DNA of 21,759 nucleotides from positions 1-21,759 of the forward strand of contig JAQVDA010000005.1 of assembly GCA_028698535.1 (NCBI GenBank), given 5' to 3'. The notes beneath the pieces are model-generated. The model ran no database searches. It was not told the origin of the DNA and saw only the letters and a program-made list of their open reading frames with translations. Each line of letters opens with the position of its first letter. Within the stretch, counting starts at the first letter, position 1. Position numbers and translations under genes: made by a program. Source of the stretch: Bacilli bacterium (GTDB lineage Bacteria > Bacillota_I > Bacilli_A > RF39 > UBA660). Below are positions 5,669 through 15,379 of the stretch, in pieces.

Positions 5669-6430
5669 ATGGCAAGCTGGGAACAAGCAGTTAAAAAGTT
5701 TTTAAAAAAATATAGTCATAATAAAAATATTTTGGGTGCTATGTTGATTGGTAGTTACGCGGTTAATAATTATAAGGTTAATTCTGATATTGATTTACAA
5801 TTAATAACTAGTGATGATGTTAAAAGTGAACGCGGTATTGTTGTTATTGATAATTATTTAATTGATTATTATATTAATACCTTAGACCAGCTTGTAAAAA
5901 TGATGGAGCGTGATTATGATAATGGCGAGATAACGCGGGCGAATGCTTTTAAGGGTGGTCGGATTCTTTTTGGTAATAGTAGCGCAATGGCTGAATTAAA
6001 AGAACGAGCGGAAACTTATTTAACAAAAGAATTAAGGCCTCTTAGTAAGGTTGAATTATCAACTAAGAAGTATAATTTATGGCGCACCTATATCTATCTT
6101 TTTGATAACCATGATAACCACTTATTTAGCTATTATTTTATTTATTATAATTTATTAAGAGATATTATGATATTATATTATGAGTATTACCAAATACCAA
6201 GGGTTGATATCTTAAAATTGGAAAAAATATATACTGATAAAACCTATCGCGAGCGGTATAATATAACGAAGATGCCCTCCCAAGAATATATTAAGCTTTT
6301 TTTAAACTGTCTAACTAACGCATCAATAAAGATAATGAATGATAATATAACTAAATTATATGATTTAGTACAGGCCGAAACGGGCGGTTTTAAAATAGAA
6401 AATTTTAAAGTGAAGGGAGAATTATTATGA
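5669..6430 (+). CDS. Nucleotidyltransferase-fold protein (DNA polymerase beta-like)
   Basis: The 253-residue protein has a minimal nucleotidyltransferase core: the GSY motif at 28-30, then SDIDL at 39-43 with metal-binding Asp40 and Asp42, and a likely third Asp in IDYY (Asp66). This is the pattern of the Pol-beta superfamily that includes aminoglycoside adenylyltransferases, MNT toxins/antitoxins and tRNA-modifying enzymes. The C-terminal two thirds are helical and Tyr-rich, and may form the substrate-binding helical bundle. The substrate cannot be read from sequence. It starts ATG after AAAGGAG (5655-5661) and its TGA overlaps the thrS ATG (ATGA at 6427-6430), implying translational coupling. 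That raises the possibility of a tRNA- or amino-acid-related role, but this is inference. Confidence 0.85.
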   Translation: MASWEQAVKKFLKKYSHNKNILGAMLIGSYAVNNYKVNSDIDLQLITSDDVKSERGIVVIDNYLIDYYINTLDQLVKMMERDYDNGEITRANAFKGGRILFGNSSAMAELKERAETYLTKELRPLSKVELSTKKYNLWRTYIYLFDNHDNHLFSYYFIYYNLLRDIMILYYEYYQIPRVDILKLEKIYTDKTYRERYNITKMPSQEYIKLFLNCLTNASIKIMNDNITKLYDLVQAETGGFKIENFKVKGELL

Positions 6431-8178
6431 TTAATATTAAAACGGACGCGACTTTAAATAAACTTAATCATTCGTGTGCTCATTTAATGGCGCACGCTAT
6501 TAAAAGGTTATATCCAAAAGCCTTATTTTGGGTTGGACCAGTAATTGAAGATGGTTTTTATTATGATGTTGATTTAGCTGAGGAAGTAATATCCGAAGAT
6601 AATTTAGTTAAGATTGAACAAGAAATGAAAAAAATAGTAACTGAGGCTTTAGTTTTTGAAAAGAAAGAATTATCAAAACAAGAAGCTTTGGCAATGTTTA
6701 AAGATGACCCATATAAACTTGATTTAATTAATAATATTGCTGAAGATATCGTTACTATCTATCAGCAGGGTGATTTTATTGATTTGTGTCGCGGACCTCA
6801 TGTTGAAAATACCAAAGAATTAAAATGTTTCAAACTTTCAAAAGTTTCCGGTGCCTATTGGAAGGGCGATTCTAATAATAAGATGTTACAGAGGATATAC
6901 GGTATTTGTTTTAAAGAAAAAACTGATTTAAATAATTATTTAACCATGTTAGATGAAGCCAAAAAAAGAGATCATCGAAAATTGGGACGGGACTTAGATT
7001 TATTTTGTTTTTCCGATCTAGTCGGTCCAGGGTTGCCTTTATACACTCCTAAAGGAACAATTATCAAAGAAGAGTTACAAAAAGCAGTTGAAAAAATATG
7101 TAAGCATTATGGCTTTCAAAAAGTCAGTTGCCCCTCATTAGCAACTATAGAGTTATTTGAAGCTTCTGGACATGCCCAGAAGTTTAATGACGAATTATTT
7201 AGGGTTGAATCTCCAAAAGGGCATAAAATGGTTTTGAAACCCGTTCAGTGTCCTCATCAAACACAAATTTATGCATCTAAAATAAGATCATATAAAGATT
7301 TACCGATTAGATATATGGAGTCAGATAAACAATATCGGGCTGAAATGCCTGGCGCGGTGAGTGGATTAAGTAGGGTATATGCCATTACTTGTGAAGATGG
7401 TCATTCATTTTGTACGGTTGGTCAAGTGAAACAGGAAGTTATTAATATGGTTAATATTATTAAAGATTTTTATAGTAGTTTAGGTTTATGGGGAAATCAT
7501 TGGGTATCACTATCGGTTAGAGATTATAATACCCCTGAAAAATATATCGGTGATTCAAAAGATTGGGATACATGTGAGAAAATGTTAGCGGAAATATCAG
7601 AAGAATTAGAATTGAATGCTAAAAAATGTGAAGGTGAAGCGGCTCTTTATGGCCCTAAACTAGATTTTATGTTTAAGGATGCTATGGGTAGAGAAATTCA
7701 AATTCCCACCGTTCAATTAGATTTTGCGACTCCTAAAAGGTTTGATTTAACTTACATAAATAATGAAGGGCGAAAAGAACATCCGGTTATGGTTCATAGA
7801 GCTATTTTAGGTTCTTATGAAAGATTTTTAGTGTTATTAATTGAACATTATGCAGGTGCTTTTCCTTTGTGGTTATCACCGGTGCAAGTAAATATTATCC
7901 CAGTTAATAATAAGTATCATCTACAGTATGGTAATAGGATAAAAGAATTATTACTTAATAGTGATATTAGAGTAGAATTGGATGATTTAGAAGAAAAATT
8001 AAGCTATAAAATAAGAAATTCCCAAGTTAATAAGATACCATATACTGTTATTATAGGTGATAAAGAAAAAGAAAATAATACCATTAGTTATCGTAAATAT
8101 GGGAGTAGAGAAACTATTATAGTAAATGTAAATCAATTTATAGATATGTTAAACGAGGAAATTATTTTGAAAAAATAG
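6427..8178 (+). CDS. thrS: Threonyl-tRNA synthetase, divergent form lacking the TGS domain
   Basis: Class II synthetase charging tRNA-Thr. The 583 residues compare with about 640 in standard bacterial enzymes; the protein starts directly at the editing domain, so the roughly 60-residue N-terminal TGS domain is absent. Editing-site residues are present: H15 and H19 (HSCAH) and C121/H125 (CRGPH). The catalytic-core zinc ligands are C275, H326 and H457. Motif 2 reads RYMESDKQYRAE...SGLSRVYAITCEDGHSFC, unlike the usual HRxE...GLxRVRxFTQDDAHIFC of Bacilli. The C-terminal anticodon-binding domain (about 480-580) is present. The start overlaps the upstream gene by four bases with AGGGAG nearby (6415-6420), and no initiation codon with TGS sequence exists upstream because another gene occupies that space. 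No T-box leader precedes it. Confidence 0.95.
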   Translation: MINIKTDATLNKLNHSCAHLMAHAIKRLYPKALFWVGPVIEDGFYYDVDLAEEVISEDNLVKIEQEMKKIVTEALVFEKKELSKQEALAMFKDDPYKLDLINNIAEDIVTIYQQGDFIDLCRGPHVENTKELKCFKLSKVSGAYWKGDSNNKMLQRIYGICFKEKTDLNNYLTMLDEAKKRDHRKLGRDLDLFCFSDLVGPGLPLYTPKGTIIKEELQKAVEKICKHYGFQKVSCPSLATIELFEASGHAQKFNDELFRVESPKGHKMVLKPVQCPHQTQIYASKIRSYKDLPIRYMESDKQYRAEMPGAVSGLSRVYAITCEDGHSFCTVGQVKQEVINMVNIIKDFYSSLGLWGNHWVSLSVRDYNTPEKYIGDSKDWDTCEKMLAEISEELELNAKKCEGEAALYGPKLDFMFKDAMGREIQIPTVQLDFATPKRFDLTYINNEGRKEHPVMVHRAILGSYERFLVLLIEHYAGAFPLWLSPVQVNIIPVNNKYHLQYGNRIKELLLNSDIRVELDDLEEKLSYKIRNSQVNKIPYTVIIGDKEKENNTISYRKYGSRETIIVNVNQFIDMLNEEIILKK

Positions 8179-8193
8179 TTGAATTAATATCAA

Positions 8194-8199
8194 TATAAT
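8194..8199 (+). promoter_or_regulatory. Possible -10 box for the peptide-rSAM-ABC-F locus
   Basis: A perfect TATAAT in the 50-nt gap after thrS. The nearest -35-like TTGAAA (8167-8172) is 21 bp away, too far for a classical promoter, so this is only a candidate. It would place a start near 8206, about 20 nt before the peptide ORFs. Confidence 0.3.
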
Positions 8200-8227
8200 G
8201 ATAGAGTAGTCGATAAAGGAGTGGATA

Positions 8228-8302
8228 ATGAATGAAAATAATAAGAAAAGCGAGGAAAACACATTCCATCATCAGGGGCTCAGTCATGTTTTCAAAAGAT
8301 AG
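8228..8302 (+). CDS. Alternative overlapping 24-aa ORF at the same ribosome binding site
   Basis: Starts at the first ATG of the ATGAATG pair, 6 nt after AAGGAG, and ends in TAG at 8300-8302. The product is acidic/polar at first (MNENNKKSEENT) with a HHQ and a C-terminal HVFKR, and has no cysteine. Better start spacing than the Cys-Cys ORF at 8232. It could be the real precursor instead, or a coupled upstream frame, or neither. Confidence 0.3.
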   Translation: MNENNKKSEENTFHHQGLSHVFKR

Positions 8303-8327
8303 TTGTTGTCCAGCAAGATCTAGGTAA
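8232..8327 (+). CDS. Candidate RiPP precursor peptide, 31 aa with Cys-Cys core
   Basis: A very short ORF directly ahead of a radical SAM/SPASM maturase, where precursor genes usually lie. The peptide has a strongly basic N-terminal half (MKIIRKARKTHS, leader-like), a middle containing IIRGSVMF, and a short C-terminal segment with two adjacent cysteines (KDSCCPARSR, C25 and C26). Shine-Dalgarno AAGGAG at 8216-8221 is 10 nt from this ATG, slightly long; a second ATG at 8228 in another frame is better spaced. I do not recognise a known precursor family. Support is position, Cys content and the ribosome binding site; the coding status is unproven. Confidence 0.45.
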   Translation: MKIIRKARKTHSIIRGSVMFSKDSCCPARSR

Positions 8328-8331
8328 ATAC

Positions 8332-8358
8332 GAAAGGGAAGTTATTTGCTTCCCTTTC
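8332..8358 (+). promoter_or_regulatory. Perfect 10-bp hairpin between the peptide ORF and the maturase gene
   Basis: GAAAGGGAAG (8332-8341) pairs exactly with CTTCCCTTTC (8349-8358) around a 7-nt loop. It begins 4 nt after the peptide stop and ends 26 nt before the maturase start. No T-run follows, so it is more likely an mRNA-stabilising or partial-termination element than a full terminator. Such hairpins behind a precursor gene commonly let precursor transcript exceed enzyme transcript. Confidence 0.65.
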
Positions 8359-8384
8359 ACTAAGTTTATTAAAGTGGTGGTTTT

Positions 8385-9683
8385 ATGAAATGGTCAATGT
8401 TTATAATAAGGGTTGCGGAAAATAAACAAATCTTACTATATAATACTTTTAACAGTGCTATAGTCATTATTGAGCAAAAAGAATATAGGTATATAAATTC
8501 CAATTTGGATAATTTGGATTTATTGAACAAAAATATAAAGGTTTTAATAAAAGAAGAATTTTTAATTGATAAAAATATAGATGAAAAACAACAGTTTTTA
8601 AAAGCTTTGCAAGCGGAATGGCAAGAAAATAAGCATTTTTGTATTCATATTTTACCGACTACAGCTTGTAATTTTTCTTGCCCATATTGTTATCAATGTG
8701 GAATAGAACGGGATTACTTTTTAGACACAGAAAAATTAAACAAAACAATTAATTATATTGATAACTATTTAGAAAAGAAGGAAATGTCATGGGCCACATT
8801 AATAATTCACGGTGGCGAACCAACAGTTTATTGGGAACCCGTCATAAAATTATTACCAAAAATTAACCAAGTTTTTAAAAAATATAAAGTATCATACAAT
8901 ACCCAAATAGTATCAAACGGTTATAATCTAACCAAAGAGAAAATAGATTTATTAGCAAAATATAACTGGAATCGCTTCCAAGTTACTTTAGATGGCCCTG
9001 CTTATATTCATGATAATAGAAGGAAACTCAAAAATGGTATGGGGACTTTTGACAAAATCGTAGAAAACATCAGGTATGCTATTGAAAACAATAAGATTAA
9101 ACAAGTAAGTTTACGGATTAATTATGATAATAATAATATCAAATATATTCCTGAATTATTAAAATATATTAAAAGAAACTTCGATATTAATCGAATAATA
9201 TTATCGTTTGGATTTATTTCTAACACAATTGGTGATAGCGAGGCTAACAAATATGTATTAAAGCACGCAATAGATTATGCCGATATTAAAGATACATATA
9301 CTAAGCTTTACAAAATCGCTATCGATTTAGGATTTGCAATGGATGATTTATTTATGTTTGATGGTATGTGTACAGCTAAATTAGATAATGCTATGGTAAT
9401 ATCAGCTGATGGCAATATATATAAATGTTTGAGTGGGGTTGGTAGAAAGGAATTTGTAGTTAATACAATAGATTCAAATAATTATGAACTACCTAATTAT
9501 TTATTTTTAGATTTATATGAACAATGTTTAGAAAAGCAATGTGAATTTCTACCATTATGTAATACTGGATGCCGATTTAATGCTTATTTAAAAAACAAGA
9601 ATATTAATAGTATTGATTGCCACCAAGAATGGTTAAAAAAAATTAATAATAAATTACTTAAAATTATTTATTTCAATAAATAA
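8385..9683 (+). CDS. Radical SAM/SPASM peptide maturase
   Basis: Iron-sulfur enzyme of the radical S-adenosylmethionine class. The N-terminal 80-90 residues resemble the recognition/leader-binding region of peptide maturases. The radical SAM core begins with the cluster motif C95xxxC99xxC102 (CNFSCPYC), with an extra C105, followed by GGEP at 143-146. A C-terminal SPASM domain supplies seven cysteines (C329, C348 in GNIYKC, C381, C386, C392, C396, C412) that would hold two auxiliary 4Fe-4S clusters. This architecture is typical of enzymes making thioether or C-C crosslinks in peptides, and also of anaerobic sulfatase maturases; no sulfatase is nearby, and a tiny Cys-Cys ORF lies just upstream. 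ATG follows GTGG at 8373-8378. An ABC-F gene follows 16 nt later. Specific product unknown. Confidence 0.9.
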   Translation: MKWSMFIIRVAENKQILLYNTFNSAIVIIEQKEYRYINSNLDNLDLLNKNIKVLIKEEFLIDKNIDEKQQFLKALQAEWQENKHFCIHILPTTACNFSCPYCYQCGIERDYFLDTEKLNKTINYIDNYLEKKEMSWATLIIHGGEPTVYWEPVIKLLPKINQVFKKYKVSYNTQIVSNGYNLTKEKIDLLAKYNWNRFQVTLDGPAYIHDNRRKLKNGMGTFDKIVENIRYAIENNKIKQVSLRINYDNNNIKYIPELLKYIKRNFDINRIILSFGFISNTIGDSEANKYVLKHAIDYADIKDTYTKLYKIAIDLGFAMDDLFMFDGMCTAKLDNAMVISADGNIYKCLSGVGRKEFVVNTIDSNNYELPNYLFLDLYEQCLEKQCEFLPLCNTGCRFNAYLKNKNINSIDCHQEWLKKINNKLLKIIYFNK

Positions 9684-9699
9684 TGGAGGTGATATTTAT

Positions 9700-11235
9700 A
9701 TGGTAGAAATATCTAACTTAACAATTAAAATAAGGCCTAATAGGCCTATCATTAATGGTTTAGATTTAATTTTAAATAAAGGTGATAAGCTTGCAGTAAT
9801 AGGAGAGGAAGGCAATGGCAAGAGTACCTTGTTTAAAGCTATTAATAATATTAATGATATAAAATCATATTGTGAAGTAGAAGGAACCATATTAAAGAAA
9901 AAATTAAAAATTGGCCTTTTAGAACAAGCATTAAGTAGTGATTGGAATCAGTTTTTAGTTTCTGAATATTTTTTAAAAATAACTCCTACTAATGAAATAG
10001 ATTATGATAAATATAACGATTTTCATAGATTAATTAACATATTATTAGCCTTAAATTTAGACCCTAAAATATTGGATTCCAACCAGAAAATTAAAACATT
10101 AAGTGGTGGCGAGAAAATCAAACTACAAATAGCGAAAGTTTTAATTAACGACCCAGATGTTTTATTATTAGATGAGCCGACCAATGACCTAGATTTATAT
10201 ACTTTAGAGTGGTTAGAAGATTTTATCAATAATCAGAATATGCCAATTATGTTTATCTCACATGATGAAACTTTATTAGAAAACACCGCTAATATGATTT
10301 TACATTTAGAACAAATTAAAGGCAAGCAAGAAGCAAGACATACTCTAGTTAAGAAAAGTTACCAAGAATATATTTATGAACGCGAGATTGCTCTTAAAAA
10401 ACAGGAGCAATTAGCGATTTATGATCAAAGAGATTATTTAAAAAGAAAACATGAATTAAGTTATCAAAAAAGTGCCGTTAGAAGTGCTCAAGAGAAAATA
10501 AAAGATTCGGCAGTGAGAAGAACTTTAAATAAAAAAATGAAAAACATCGTTCACCAGGAACAAAAGTTAGCTAATACTCAATTAACAACTAAACCAGATA
10601 TTGAAGATGCTATTTATATTGAGTTTGAACCTAATATAACAATACCCACTAATAAAGTCATTTTAAATTTAGAAAGGGATGAATTAAAAATAGGTCCTAA
10701 AAGGTTGACTCATAATATTAAATTATTAGTCAAGGGACCTGAAAAAATAGTAATAGTAGGGCAAAATGGTATTGGTAAGACTGTTTTATTAAAAATGATT
10801 TATGATGAACTTAAAAATAGAAAAGATATCAAAGTTGGCTATATGCCTCAAAATTATGATGATGTTCTAAATACTGATATGGTAGCCCTAGATTATTTAT
10901 ATGAGGGATTAGAAATTATAGATGAAAGCAAAATAAGGGCATATATGGGTAATATGAAATTTACTAGTGATGAAATGCTCTTTAAAATAGGTAATCTTAG
11001 TAGTGGACAAAAAGCAAAATTATTAATATTAAAGTTAATATTAGATAAATGTAATGTGCTCATTCTTGACGAACCAACTAGAAATTTGAGTCCGTTATCT
11101 AATCCAGTTATTAGAAAAATGCTAAAAGATTATAAAGGGACTATAATTAGTGTTTCGCATGATCGAAAATATATAATGGAAGTTAGGGATGTTGTTTACG
11201 AACTTACGTCAACTGGAATGGTAAAAAAAAACTAG
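9700..11235 (+). CDS. ABC-F family ATPase
   Basis: Soluble protein with two tandem ABC ATPase domains and no membrane segment, the ABC-F layout of ribosome-acting translation factors and antibiotic-resistance proteins. Domain 1 has Walker A GEEGNGKS (35-42), signature LSGGEK (134-139) and Walker B LLLDEPTNDLD (155-165). The charged linker at about 205-300 corresponds to the P-site tRNA interaction region. Domain 2 has Walker A GQNGIGKT (354-361), signature LSSGQK (433-438) and Walker B LILDEPT (454-460). The segment RNLSPLS after the second Walker B lacks the usual D-loop Asp. It starts after a strong GGAGGT (9685-9690), 16 nt behind the maturase, so both share a transcript. It could protect the ribosome from the peptide or a drug, or be a general ABC-F; sequence cannot decide. 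Confidence 0.88.
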   Translation: MVEISNLTIKIRPNRPIINGLDLILNKGDKLAVIGEEGNGKSTLFKAINNINDIKSYCEVEGTILKKKLKIGLLEQALSSDWNQFLVSEYFLKITPTNEIDYDKYNDFHRLINILLALNLDPKILDSNQKIKTLSGGEKIKLQIAKVLINDPDVLLLDEPTNDLDLYTLEWLEDFINNQNMPIMFISHDETLLENTANMILHLEQIKGKQEARHTLVKKSYQEYIYEREIALKKQEQLAIYDQRDYLKRKHELSYQKSAVRSAQEKIKDSAVRRTLNKKMKNIVHQEQKLANTQLTTKPDIEDAIYIEFEPNITIPTNKVILNLERDELKIGPKRLTHNIKLLVKGPEKIVIVGQNGIGKTVLLKMIYDELKNRKDIKVGYMPQNYDDVLNTDMVALDYLYEGLEIIDESKIRAYMGNMKFTSDEMLFKIGNLSSGQKAKLLILKLILDKCNVLILDEPTRNLSPLSNPVIRKMLKDYKGTIISVSHDRKYIMEVRDVVYELTSTGMVKKN

Positions 11236-11290
11236 TTGATGAGGCATCTAATCACTTAAAACCAAGGATGAAAGTGAAATAATAACTGAA

Positions 11291-11316
11291 AATAGAATAA
11301 AATTATTCTATTTTTT
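11291..11316 (+). terminator. Terminator after the ABC-F gene
   Basis: Stem AATAGAAT (11291-11298) with ATTCTATT (11305-11312), a six-base loop and a run of T to 11316. Closes the accessory operon starting near 8200. Confidence 0.65.
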
Positions 11317-11446
11317 AATTGGTCTAAAAATTTAAACCATCCAGTATTTAACCAGTTGCTTTTCCAATATTAGATAAATTTACTATTTGGGTTTAATCTA
11401 TCGTTATAAATTCTCTTGTATTTATTAATGTTTACTAATCCGTTAG

Positions 11447-11483
11447 TGTCAAGAGTTCTTGGGATTTTTTAGGAAGATAAGTT
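11447..11483 (+). repeat. Left copy of 37-bp imperfect direct repeat flanking the modification module
   Basis: This stretch, with core AAGAGTTCTTGGGATTTTTT, matches 15657-15693 with about 33 of 37 identical bases in the same orientation. It abuts the truncated transposase remnant on its right, so the repeat edge looks like a recombination junction. Confidence 0.75.
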
Positions 11484-11735
11484 AATTCCATCAAAGACTA
11501 CAATTGATTTCATCATGATATCCTTTTTATTATTACCTTGGGTATGAATCCATTTTTCATCAGCCATAATATATAACTTATCAGGACTTGGCAATGGTTT
11601 TAATTTAGGTTTTGATAGTTTGGTTTCTAAAACAACATTTCTCACTAACTGTCTATAACCTTATTTAGAATTCTTTTAGTTCCGTGCAAAGATTATGAAA
11701 ATCTATTGTTTTATATTTAATGCCATGATATAATT
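11469..11735 (-). pseudogene. Decayed ISLre2/UPF0236-type transposase fragment
   Basis: On the minus strand a reading frame from about 11660 to 11469 encodes RQLVRNVVLE, then LYIMADEKWIHTQ and IMMKSIVVFDGI. The ADEKWIHTQ...VVFDGI pattern resembles the catalytic-region signature of ISLre2-family (UPF0236) transposases. The homology stops at a TAA just after the I of FDGI, and the upstream part (to about 11735) continues only in other frames with stops, so this is a broken, frameshifted remnant of a protein normally over 400 residues. It fills most of the 525-nt gap between the ABC-F gene and the methylase gene. Family call is from memory of the motif, so moderate. Confidence 0.55.
11706..11734 (+). 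promoter_or_regulatory. Promoter of the modification module
   Basis: TTGTTT at 11706-11711, a 17-bp spacer ending in the extended TGA, and a perfect TATAAT at 11729-11734. Transcription would start near 11741, about 20 nt before the ATG. Confidence 0.7.
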
Positions 11736-11761
11736 TTACTAGTAGAGGTGGGTGGACTAGT

Positions 11762-13918
11762 ATGGGAATAAGAAAATTTAGTGAAGTAAAGATTGAATAT
11801 GATCAGGAATATTTAAACCAACCAGTTATTAATAGCATTGTGCCAGTAAATTTAAAAATAAATAAGCAATGTTCAATTAAAAATAATAAAAACGAACCTA
11901 ATGAAGAATTTTACAAATGGCAGTTAATATATAGTCTCATAAATTCTGGAATGTATTCCCGAGAGTTTATTGGAACAGAAGTTAGTTTCCCAAAAGGAAA
12001 CAAAAATTCGGCACCCATAAAATTTGATGTTGCAATTTTCAAAAGCAATAAATGGTTTAGTCATTATGCAGAGTATCATAAGACAAAAAAACAAGATGAA
12101 TTAGATTGGTTAAGGGAAAATTTAATTTGTGTTATTGAAATAAAAAAAGAAAACAATAAAAATATAGAAATAGTTTATAATCAACAACTCAAACCCGGAA
12201 TGAAAGAAGCGGAAAACAACTATGTTTTAGGTATGCTGTATGACACAGGAAAACTCTATTTATTTCAAAAAAGGGCTGATAAATTTTTAAGATACGATGA
12301 AACTTTAAATCGAAAAGGTGAAAAAAGCACGACAAAAGAACTGTCGTTAGATATCCCAGATGCCTATTATAAAATTCCATCATTTGATCAACTTCTTAAA
12401 AAATATGACTATATGCCTATAGATAGAAGCAATAGAACTGTAATGGACCTTGATATAATTTCTGGTGCCCTAAGTTCTCAATTGTCAGATAGTATAGGAA
12501 ATATTCTTAAGATTATGGATGCACAATCAATGACTAATGAACGCGGATATGAGATTTTAATTCAAATTCTAGCACTTAAAATATTCGATGAAAAAAGAAG
12601 CGAAGATGGCTTGCGAAATTTGGAATTATATATTCAAGATTATGAAAGTCGCAAAGTTGATTTATTGTTTTTTATCCGAGACAAGGAACGAGAATTTATT
12701 AAATTATCCGATGAGGATATTCAAACCTTCATAAAAAGATTACAAGCATTGTATGATTTGGCTTCTCAAAAGTATCACCATATATTAAAAGATTCAATAA
12801 TAGCTTGGAATAAGGAAGAACATGTTAGAATTATCGGTGAAATAGTAAAACAATTTCAAGACTACAGTTTTATAAGATCTGATCAGACCGATTTATATCA
12901 ACTTGTTTTTTATCAATTTGCGAGTGAATTTTCAAAAGCTAATAAAGGACAATTTGTAACTCCAATACCTGTAATAGAGTTTATTGTCGATATCATTAAC
13001 CCTAAAAGGGGAGAGACTATTGTTGATCCAACAGTTGGAATTGCTGATTTTTTGGCATTAGCATATAATCATTCTGACTCGAAATTAAATGATGAGAATT
13101 TATATGGTGTTGATAATGATGAACATATGATAATGCTTGCACAGTTAAATATGTTATTAAATGGTGATGGAAATTCAAATTTGCAGTATAAGCCTGATAA
13201 AGGTTCACTACTTTGGAAATTTAATTCTAATGGTGTACTTGTTGATTTAGATCCAAAAATTCATAAAAACGGAAATTGGGACACTTGGTATGACCAGACA
13301 AAATTGAAAAAATTTGATATCGTGTTAACAAATCCACCGTTTGGAGAAGGCAGAAAATATGAGCCTACTACTACTCAAGATAGAGAAATACTTGAGTTGT
13401 ATGAATTATGGAATATAGCTAGAGAGTCAAACTCAATTGATCCTGGCCTGATTTTTTTAGAAAATGCGTATAGAGTTTTAAATGAAAATGGTAGAATTGG
13501 CATAATTTTATCCAATTCTCTAGCTTCAGTTAAAAAATGGGAAAAAGCAAGAAACTGGTTACTTGAAAAAGTGCGTATTGTAGCTATATTTGATTTACCA
13601 GCTAATATTTTTGCTGACACCGGTGTTAACACTACGGTATTAATTGCCTATAAACCGTCTGCCAAACAAATTGATGAACTCAAAAAAAAGGACTATAGTA
13701 TATTTGTTAAAAACATAGAAAAAGTAGGTTATGAGGTAAAAACGATAAAGAGAACAAAATACTTTGAAAAACTTTATTTAATTGATAAGAAAGATTTTTC
13801 TTATCAAGTTGATTCAGAGGGGAATGCGATTATAGATGAGGATTTTACTAAAACTGTAGCAGAATTTAAAAAATGGTGCCTATCCCAAGAGGAAGAATTG
13901 AAATCAAAATTTTTATAA
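11762..13918 (+). CDS. Fused PD-(D/E)xK nuclease / N6-adenine DNA methyltransferase (type I-like or BcgI-like)
   Basis: The 718-residue protein combines an N-terminal domain like the HsdR N-terminus with an HsdM-type methylase. The N-terminal part shows KFDVAIF (Asp89) and CVIEIKKE (Glu126, Lys128), matching a PD-(D/E)xK nuclease core, preceded by a conserved-looking EEFYKWQLIYSLI helix and FPKGNKNSAP. The methylase part has GQFVTP (396-401), AdoMet motif I in the form DPTVGIADFL (422-431), where the usual GxG is GIA, and catalytic motif IV NPPF (524-527). A typical HsdM is about 500 residues. The partner specificity gene follows 15 nt later and no separate hsdR is present, so this resembles BcgI-type two-gene systems in which one subunit cuts and methylates. 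Cleavage activity is an inference. Start: ATG after GGTGGGTGG. Confidence 0.88.
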   Translation: MGIRKFSEVKIEYDQEYLNQPVINSIVPVNLKINKQCSIKNNKNEPNEEFYKWQLIYSLINSGMYSREFIGTEVSFPKGNKNSAPIKFDVAIFKSNKWFSHYAEYHKTKKQDELDWLRENLICVIEIKKENNKNIEIVYNQQLKPGMKEAENNYVLGMLYDTGKLYLFQKRADKFLRYDETLNRKGEKSTTKELSLDIPDAYYKIPSFDQLLKKYDYMPIDRSNRTVMDLDIISGALSSQLSDSIGNILKIMDAQSMTNERGYEILIQILALKIFDEKRSEDGLRNLELYIQDYESRKVDLLFFIRDKEREFIKLSDEDIQTFIKRLQALYDLASQKYHHILKDSIIAWNKEEHVRIIGEIVKQFQDYSFIRSDQTDLYQLVFYQFASEFSKANKGQFVTPIPVIEFIVDIINPKRGETIVDPTVGIADFLALAYNHSDSKLNDENLYGVDNDEHMIMLAQLNMLLNGDGNSNLQYKPDKGSLLWKFNSNGVLVDLDPKIHKNGNWDTWYDQTKLKKFDIVLTNPPFGEGRKYEPTTTQDREILELYELWNIARESNSIDPGLIFLENAYRVLNENGRIGIILSNSLASVKKWEKARNWLLEKVRIVAIFDLPANIFADTGVNTTVLIAYKPSAKQIDELKKKDYSIFVKNIEKVGYEVKTIKRTKYFEKLYLIDKKDFSYQVDSEGNAIIDEDFTKTVAEFKKWCLSQEEELKSKFL

Positions 13919-13933
13919 AAAGGAGAGATAGCT

Positions 13934-15379
13934 ATGTTAATAATTAAATATTCCGATATCATTAATAATAATTTTAGCCTTTCTCCAAATAATTATAATA
14001 AGGTGCCCATAGAAACCACCAATGTTGTTCCGCTTTCATTATTAGTTGAAAAAATTATTAAAGGTGAAGAAATAGGAAGCAGAAACTATACGCAAGAATC
14101 TGTGTATAAGTTTATCAGAACTTCTGGGATAGTTAACGATAAATATCTATTAGATGAAAACGAAAATTCTATTTTAAATATTAACCCAAACTCTTTTGTT
14201 AGTAAAAATTTAAGTCAAGGAGACATCTTAATTTGCAAAGATTCTAATGTTGGAGATGTTGCAATGCTTAGAAAAGATTATGACACATATATGTTCAGCA
14301 GCGGAATTAATAAATTAATCCTAAAAAGGCATAAAAATTATGTTTTTTCAGTGATGAAACATAAAAATTTCAAAAAACAATTAATAACCTTAATTTCAAA
14401 AGGATCGACTTTAAAGCATGCCAAAAATACATATTTAAAATGTTTAATTCCATTCCCCAATGATGACAAAGTGATTGAATATGTTTCAAATTTAACGTTA
14501 TCAATAGTTAATAAGGAAAAAATAATTTTAGAAAAATTCAATGAGATAAATAAATTTATAGAAAATACTATTGATAGTAATCAAAAAGCAAATATATTTG
14601 TTTTTAAGTTTCCAAGGTTAAGTCAAATACTAGGTAGAAGTAGATTAGATACGGGCATATATAATGAGGAATACAAGAAAATTGAACATAAGATATTAAA
14701 TTTTTCAAATGGTTATTACTATATTTCTAAAAATAAAATTCATGGCGGAAATACTCCGAAACAAAGAATTATAGGGGGTAATAAAGAATATGATTTTTAT
14801 TGGATAACACCAACATCTATTAATGATTTTGGTATATTTAACCTGGGTGATAGTATATATTGTAAAAAACAAAACATAAATAAAAATTGCATGTTAATTA
14901 TTAATAGAACATCAAAAGGCGGCAAAGGGGAATATGTTGGGATTGCACATTATTATGATTACAGACACTTTGGATTAGCACAACATAATCAAGGGATTTA
15001 TAGAATAGACGGATATCCTGATGAGGAATTGATATTTATGACTTGTTTGTTAAACTCAAAATACTATAGAAAACTATGTGCAAATTTAAGTATGGGTTCT
15101 AAAATGAAGGAAATAAAATTAAACAATATTCTCGAGATACCTTTTCCCAATTTTTCAAAAAATAATCGTAAAACCATTTGTCAAAATTATTATAATAAAG
15201 AGACTAAATTGAATGATATATCCCCAACCCAATTTTTATCAATAGATAATGAATGGAATAAAAAAGCGGGTATTATTAACATATATGAATCTTTACATGA
15301 AACTAAAAAAATTTTAAATAAGGTTATAGATGATATTTATAACAATGTTCCTATTAATATAACTTATAAAATATTTTAG
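13934..15379 (+). CDS. Type I-like restriction-modification specificity subunit (HsdS)
   Basis: Target-recognition subunit that would direct the upstream methylase/nuclease to a bipartite DNA site. The 481 residues contain two target-recognition domains: one at about 1-195, ending in a conserved-region helix (IVNKEKIILEKFNEINKF), and a second at about 225-415. The second begins with the typical entry segment FPRLSQILGRSRLDTG and carries the HsdS-like elements GGNTPKQRI and IEIPFPN-like closing strands (ILEIPFPNF). The C-terminal helix is near 440-475. ATG follows AAGGAG (13919-13925), 15 nt downstream of the methylase, so the two are co-transcribed. No inverted repeats or second S gene that would allow S-gene shuffling are seen. 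Recognition sequence not predictable. Confidence 0.88.
   Translation: MLIIKYSDIINNNFSLSPNNYNKVPIETTNVVPLSLLVEKIIKGEEIGSRNYTQESVYKFIRTSGIVNDKYLLDENENSILNINPNSFVSKNLSQGDILICKDSNVGDVAMLRKDYDTYMFSSGINKLILKRHKNYVFSVMKHKNFKKQLITLISKGSTLKHAKNTYLKCLIPFPNDDKVIEYVSNLTLSIVNKEKIILEKFNEINKFIENTIDSNQKANIFVFKFPRLSQILGRSRLDTGIYNEEYKKIEHKILNFSNGYYYISKNKIHGGNTPKQRIIGGNKEYDFYWITPTSINDFGIFNLGDSIYCKKQNINKNCMLIINRTSKGGKGEYVGIAHYYDYRHFGLAQHNQGIYRIDGYPDEELIFMTCLLNSKYYRKLCANLSMGSKMKEIKLNNILEIPFPNFSKNNRKTICQNYYNKETKLNDISPTQFLSIDNEWNKKAGIINIYESLHETKKILNKVIDDIYNNVPINITYKIF

Follow-up and report, generated by a model that had tools for sequence, protein, structure and literature searches.

Among peptide maturases that combine a radical S-adenosylmethionine (SAM) domain with a SPASM domain, the geopeptide enzymes (TIGR04280) follow the gene of a 30-33-residue precursor that has I-I in its N-terminal segment and CC close to its C-terminal end. 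PapB links a Cys to a later Asp across 0-6 intervening residues, incompletely at 0 and 6 (PMC9413430, in the part available). According to the available part of PMC8546547, ABC-F ATPases associated with biosynthetic gene clusters occur almost exclusively in clusters for antibiotics that target the peptidyl-transferase centre, and production of one of them, LmrC of the lincomycin cluster, is switched on by ribosome-mediated attenuation. The locus described here lies in a stretch of 21,759 nucleotides (the window) of contig JAQVDA010000005.1 from a Bacilli bacterium (assembly GCA_028698535.1), where genes for a small precursor, a radical SAM/SPASM enzyme and an ABC-F ATPase stand in this order. 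An earlier note on this DNA had proposed a minimal system for a ribosomally synthesised and post-translationally modified peptide (RiPP), in which the ATPase provides self-protection instead of an exporter. Comparison of related loci shows the pairing of predicted precursor and enzyme and the linkage to the ABC-F gene; the ribosome protection and the chemistry of the product are inferred.

Precursor peptide and its maturase

The predicted precursor gene (8232-8327; all cassette features are on the forward strand) is preceded by a Shine-Dalgarno-like AAAGGAG, read from the sequence at 8215-8221, and encodes 31 amino acids, MKIIRKARKTHSIIRGSVMFSKDSCCPARSR, with the core region KDSCCPARSR. It is followed after 57 nt by the gene for a 432-residue radical SAM/SPASM peptide maturase (8385-9683), and this after a further 16 nt by that for a 511-residue ABC-F ATPase (9700-11235), which on profile, structure and linkage is presumed to protect the ribosome. 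The open reading frames (ORFs), their spacings and the cysteine pattern agree with the earlier note when checked against ORF coordinates and aligned relatives. The enzyme has the radical SAM motif CX3CX2C and the SPASM cysteines; C95, C99 and C102 are invariant in all 46 aligned relatives, as are C329, C348, C386, C392, C396 and C412, and C381 is found in 44 of the 46.

Loss of the small ORF beside homologous enzymes, or their pairing with another substrate, had been named as what would speak against the proposal. A short upstream ORF ending in D-x-C(-C) was kept at all eight loci of enzyme relatives with readable upstream DNA, the window included; seven of them have CC and one a single Cys. 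Six of the genome loci (L019-L024) encode enzymes of 37-49% identity, and five show the short ORF before the enzyme gene, namely L019 (...KKLNIGGQDPCCGGRA), L020 (...SSIAFSKDSCCGQRA), L022 (...SLHKDGCCHAYRVSK), L023 (...VIGGQDPCCPARA) and L024 (...FAVHKDSCCSSRG); the sixth, L021, stands outside the count of eight, its sequence starting 117 bases before the enzyme match. The last two cases, L203 from a WOR-3 group genome (...SLHKDNCCRQKANIK) and L207 from a small Sarcina plasmid (MIILNEKKPLVLIDKCPARA, with one Cys), were found by reading, and the strict motif pattern would miss both. G-rich Shine-Dalgarno-like sites also precede the other seven precursors, and both peptide ends are conserved, including where the downstream genes are the enzyme and an exporter.

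A strict motif search in six frames (178 loci, 1.84 Mb) gave ten matches, six before related enzymes, counting the window, and four elsewhere and unrelated; the one match in viral contigs (L178) lies far from the enzyme match. A survey of 92 loci that carry other radical SAM enzymes and have 250 or more bases of upstream sequence, restricted to Cys-containing ORFs with a Shine-Dalgarno-like site, found no D-x-C-C ORF. Several of these 92 loci have other kinds of precursor, and six have CC near the C-terminus. In the 670-kb source genome (80% completeness) a degenerate DNA pattern for KDxCC matched once, at the small ORF; a reversed control pattern also matched once, so that this count alone proves nothing. 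Taken together, the assignment of precursor and maturase is well supported by these sequence comparisons. A 24-residue ORF overlapping from 8228 was rejected as the precursor: no counterpart was noticed in other loci, although these were not searched for it systematically.

A hairpin lying between the precursor and enzyme genes (8332-8358, -17.5 kcal/mol, z -6.9) is an element additional to those in the earlier note. Such a hairpin follows the precursor in six of seven loci folded (none in L020; weak in L024, z -1.6), and also in L207. A short ORF with a hairpin behind it in a leader region would also describe a regulatory leader peptide, stalling the ribosome or responding to cysteine, with the hairpin as attenuator of the downstream genes, and LmrC is itself induced by ribosome-mediated attenuation (PMC8546547, available part). 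Nevertheless, we regard this as very unlikely, since both ends of the peptide are kept even with an enzyme and exporter downstream, a SPASM maturase needs a peptide while no other short upstream ORF recurs among those listed, and L020 lacks the hairpin. If the small ORF is instead the precursor gene, the hairpin may serve to yield more precursor than enzyme.

The earlier note did not recognise the peptide class. The enzyme falls under the cut-offs of all 25 best NCBIfam models, and the nearest of these (CefB, TIGR04463 and geopeptide) represent other families. The top model is that of CefB, the Cys-every-fifth maturase (NF038107), which matches over the full length at 209 bits against a cut-off of 600, but the window precursor has no Cys-every-fifth pattern. 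The resemblance to geopeptide systems in gene order and precursor is also limited, as the window enzyme scores 186.5 bits against a TIGR04280 cut-off of 400 and falls outside the geopeptide clade (support 100/100, four rows), while geopeptide precursors are without the D-x-C-C-x-x-R core and no ABC-F was recognised among the listed neighbours of their loci, which were not scanned. The enzyme also falls under the cut-offs for the SCIFF maturase CteB (76 bits against 425 for TIGR03974) and for PapB (83 bits against 340 for NF047865), both of which have other precursors; to our knowledge, no ABC-F partner has been described for these ranthipeptide enzymes. A role as sulfatase maturase was rejected at 63 bits against a cut-off of 349, and no sulfatase domain was present in the scanned window proteins.

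In the model of the whole enzyme, residues 7-56 form three strands followed by helices and may represent a domain like a RiPP recognition element (RRE); the alignments with structures 5wgg and 8vpo start at model residues 4 and 1, respectively, in comparisons of the full-length model, in which this domain was seen only as a part.

Several loci met in this comparison have features of their own. Short precursors with CC in their end region stand before radical SAM enzymes at L061, L063, L066, L074, L080 and L088; the four of these six enzymes tested against TIGR04280 are geopeptide maturases (510-538 bits). At L020 the enzyme is encoded in two overlapping frames (6001-7313), through a frameshift or an assembly error. 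At L022 the next ORFs (8974-11915) are those of another SPASM enzyme and another transporter-like protein; as no separate precursor was seen there, both SPASM enzymes may act on one peptide.

Distribution of the cassette and exchange of its third gene

Family members were taken as proteins scoring at least 460 bits with the A1 profile, plus the L207 enzyme (36.6% identity, not scored with A1), and loci at 188-269 bits were counted as other enzymes; every genome count includes the centre genome of the search itself. A single-protein search of the genome contigs gave no relatives; an alignment-based search of them confirmed at least 435, of which 80 were kept, six at 37-49% identity. The enzyme is present in one of 291 genomes of its own family and, at the subfamily score, in one of 392 of its phylum, where four more reach 188-205 bits. 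Further genome sets contained members in 1/297, 2/238, 1/225 and 1/245 genomes, and in one set 2/147 exceeded 460 bits and 11/147 were found at E 1e-70. Among 97 genomes including its own, the next best match scored 129 bits against 982 for the enzyme itself. Viral contigs gave 85 relatives, 80 of them kept, with a top E-value of 6e-29 at 29% identity, and the best match in phage records was also at 29%. The cassette type occurs in Bacillota and, judging by protein names alone, apparently in Dojkabacteria. A related but different tiny cassette was seen on plasmid p8 of Sarcina sp. JB2 (L208, 2343-5053); it combines a mini-ORF (MKLIGKSGLEVDSICGVQIG) with genes for a radical SAM enzyme and a major facilitator superfamily transporter.

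The rarity of the cassette bears on whether its product is an antibiotic at all. Other small products of SPASM enzymes are cofactors, such as pyrroloquinoline quinone and mycofactocin, and this, together with the very small cores, would suit a peptide-derived signal or small molecule resembling a cofactor, the third gene handling transport or side effects. That explanation seems to us quite unlikely: the patchy, rare distribution (one in 291 and one in 392 genomes) and the location of L207 on a small plasmid fit an accessory function, and the ABC-F would be left with no obvious role.

The third gene encodes an ABC-F in the window and two other loci, and an ABC exporter in five loci. Thus the linkage described in the earlier note recurs across genomes, and comparison of the loci shows that an exporter gene can stand in its place; such an exchange is expected if the predicted third-gene products serve export or self-protection. 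Of the eight genomes with the enzyme, three (G000, that of the window, G097 and G098) have a close ABC-F (660-791 bits) immediately downstream of the enzyme; in the remaining five the top ABC-F score is 157-213 bits, and in one of these, G101, the downstream DNA is masked.

Since the neighbours of metagenome proteins are unreadable, linkage in metagenomes was deduced from equal size, in bases, of the longest contig. By this measure nine of 118 enzyme clusters, one being that of the window and eight beyond it, match an ABC-F cluster exactly. Shifts of 1-60 bases either way gave a mean of 0.7 and a maximum of three matches. The count is a lower bound, as all 118 enzyme clusters were compared with 120 listed of 6633 ABC-F clusters.

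An enzyme tree of 73 rows was built, with 60 rows drawn from the 118 enzyme clusters and 13 from loci, L020 being represented by the second of its two frames; it omits 13 near-duplicates (P0002-P0006, P0008-P0011, P0013-P0016), P0052, P0056, P0065, P0070 and, except for five, the clusters P0073-P0118. It contains a clade of 32 rows (support 99/98) in which all ten rows with a known partner have an ABC-F, eight of the ten by contig-size coincidence only. L019 is on another branch and exporter rows are elsewhere. The ABC-F label changes twice on this tree against 6.8 times in shuffles (0/500 as low), and the exporter label three times against 4.6 (23/500 as low). The enzymes linked to a D-x-C(C) ORF together form a clade with support of 94/88, which is not starred. 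Distances between enzymes and between their ABC-Fs correlate strongly over 11 pairs (r = 0.90, Mantel p 5e-5); because common descent of a single unit would give the same value, this indicates lasting linkage and not function.

Proposed product and the role of the ABC-F protein

We favour, at a probability of about 60%, a minimal RiPP system with a cross-linked Asp/Cys core, a ribosome-acting product and an ABC-F that protects the producer. The basic N-terminal segment of the precursor (MKII..) would be bound by the enzyme through its own RRE-like domain, and the enzyme would form at least one radical cross-link in the C-terminal core D-x-C-C-x-x-R. A thioether from a core Cys, for which the conserved Asp is a candidate acceptor, seems most plausible, an economical guess from the Cys-to-Asp links of PapB, although there the Asp comes after the Cys (PMC9413430, available part). 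The small product would then inhibit the ribosome near the peptidyl-transferase centre, a target proposed because cluster-associated ABC-Fs accompany antibiotics acting there (PMC8546547, available part). The co-transcribed ABC-F would protect the producer's own ribosomes, and an ABC exporter takes its place in cassettes where it is missing.

The ABC-F protein itself has two ATPase domains, with predicted helices at 221-266 and 270-291 between them resembling a PtIM linker. In this architecture it is like the resistance ABC-Fs (Vga, VmlR, Sal, Lsa), and the six best structural matches of its model are such proteins; it differs in its coupling to a RiPP-like cassette and in falling under the cut-offs of the best 25 of 196 matched models. 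The best NCBIfam model, NF000355, gives 279 bits against a cut-off of 380, and the ABC-Fs of L019 and L020 score 293 and 305 bits. Like LmrC and other antibiotic-cluster ABC-Fs (PMC8546547, available part), it would sit among biosynthetic genes whose product acts on the ribosome; the cluster of LmrC is one for a small molecule in Streptomyces, whereas the product here would be ribosomally made.

EttA follows closely behind the resistance proteins in the structural comparison, so the RiPP reading could be right with the ABC-F as a ribosome-bound sensor or translation factor, comparable to LmrC, which signals in the lincomycin cluster, or as a helper in translating the precursor. We consider this unlikely, as none of the three cassette genes encodes a transcription regulator, and the exporter cassettes have no ABC-F beside the enzyme, which an exchange of two protective functions fits better. 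On the ABC-F tree (88 of the 120 listed clusters plus two loci, the linkage of most rows being unknown) the linked rows do not form one clade, with ten label changes against 10.5 in shuffles (185/500 as low). The window's genome has a second, solitary ABC-F of the family, 50% identical to the window copy (L221, 3425-4432; G000:C76), which speaks against an exclusive linkage.

An improbable variant is that the D-x-C-C cassettes form an undescribed RiPP class whose very small D-x-C-C-x-x-R cores are cross-linked to give peptides that bind the ribosome, and in which the peptide of the ABC-F lineage is not exported and acts as an intracellular toxin stopping translation, with the ABC-F as antidote. 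Should the favoured RiPP system be real, three small genes would make up a ribosomally made peptide system whose resistance gene hints at the target, and target and chemistry would be directly testable, since cluster ABC-Fs point to the peptidyl-transferase centre. The ABC-F would then be an alternative to an exporter for self-protection in RiPP clusters, a use on which no paper was found. In a literature search that left most subscription papers and all preprints outside, no title among the matches listed described self-protection by an ABC-F in a RiPP or radical SAM system, and the word geopeptide occurred in no paper. In the available part of PMC12724294 the ABC-F is an unrelated resistance gene.

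Surroundings of the cassette

The cassette is preceded by a gene at 6427-8178 which by eye we take to encode threonyl-tRNA synthetase. No promoter is claimed, as 28 consensus sites were found in the window against 27.4 in shuffles, and nothing in Rfam reached gathering score within 7000-12000. On the 3' side of the ABC-F gene, an AT-rich hairpin followed by a stretch of T (11288-11315, -9.1 kcal/mol, z -4.6) presumably acts as the terminator with which the earlier note had closed the unit; it is absent from the consensus terminator scan, which requires at least three G-C pairs.

Downstream, adjoining the cassette (11762-15379), are genes for an N6-methylase and a type-I-specificity-like protein, with weak likeness to MAD2 and MAD5 of the methylation-associated defence system. 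Between them and the cassette, a 58-residue ORF on the reverse strand (11469-11645) matches no family and lies in a gene-poor stretch; by eye it resembles a decayed mobile-element gene. A 146-residue protein encoded at 20585-21025 matches the first domain of MutS only. At L221, no enzyme gene stands beside the second ABC-F, and the contig ends inside it; the gene lies behind a leucyl-tRNA synthetase-like ORF, so named by eye, and two small ORFs.
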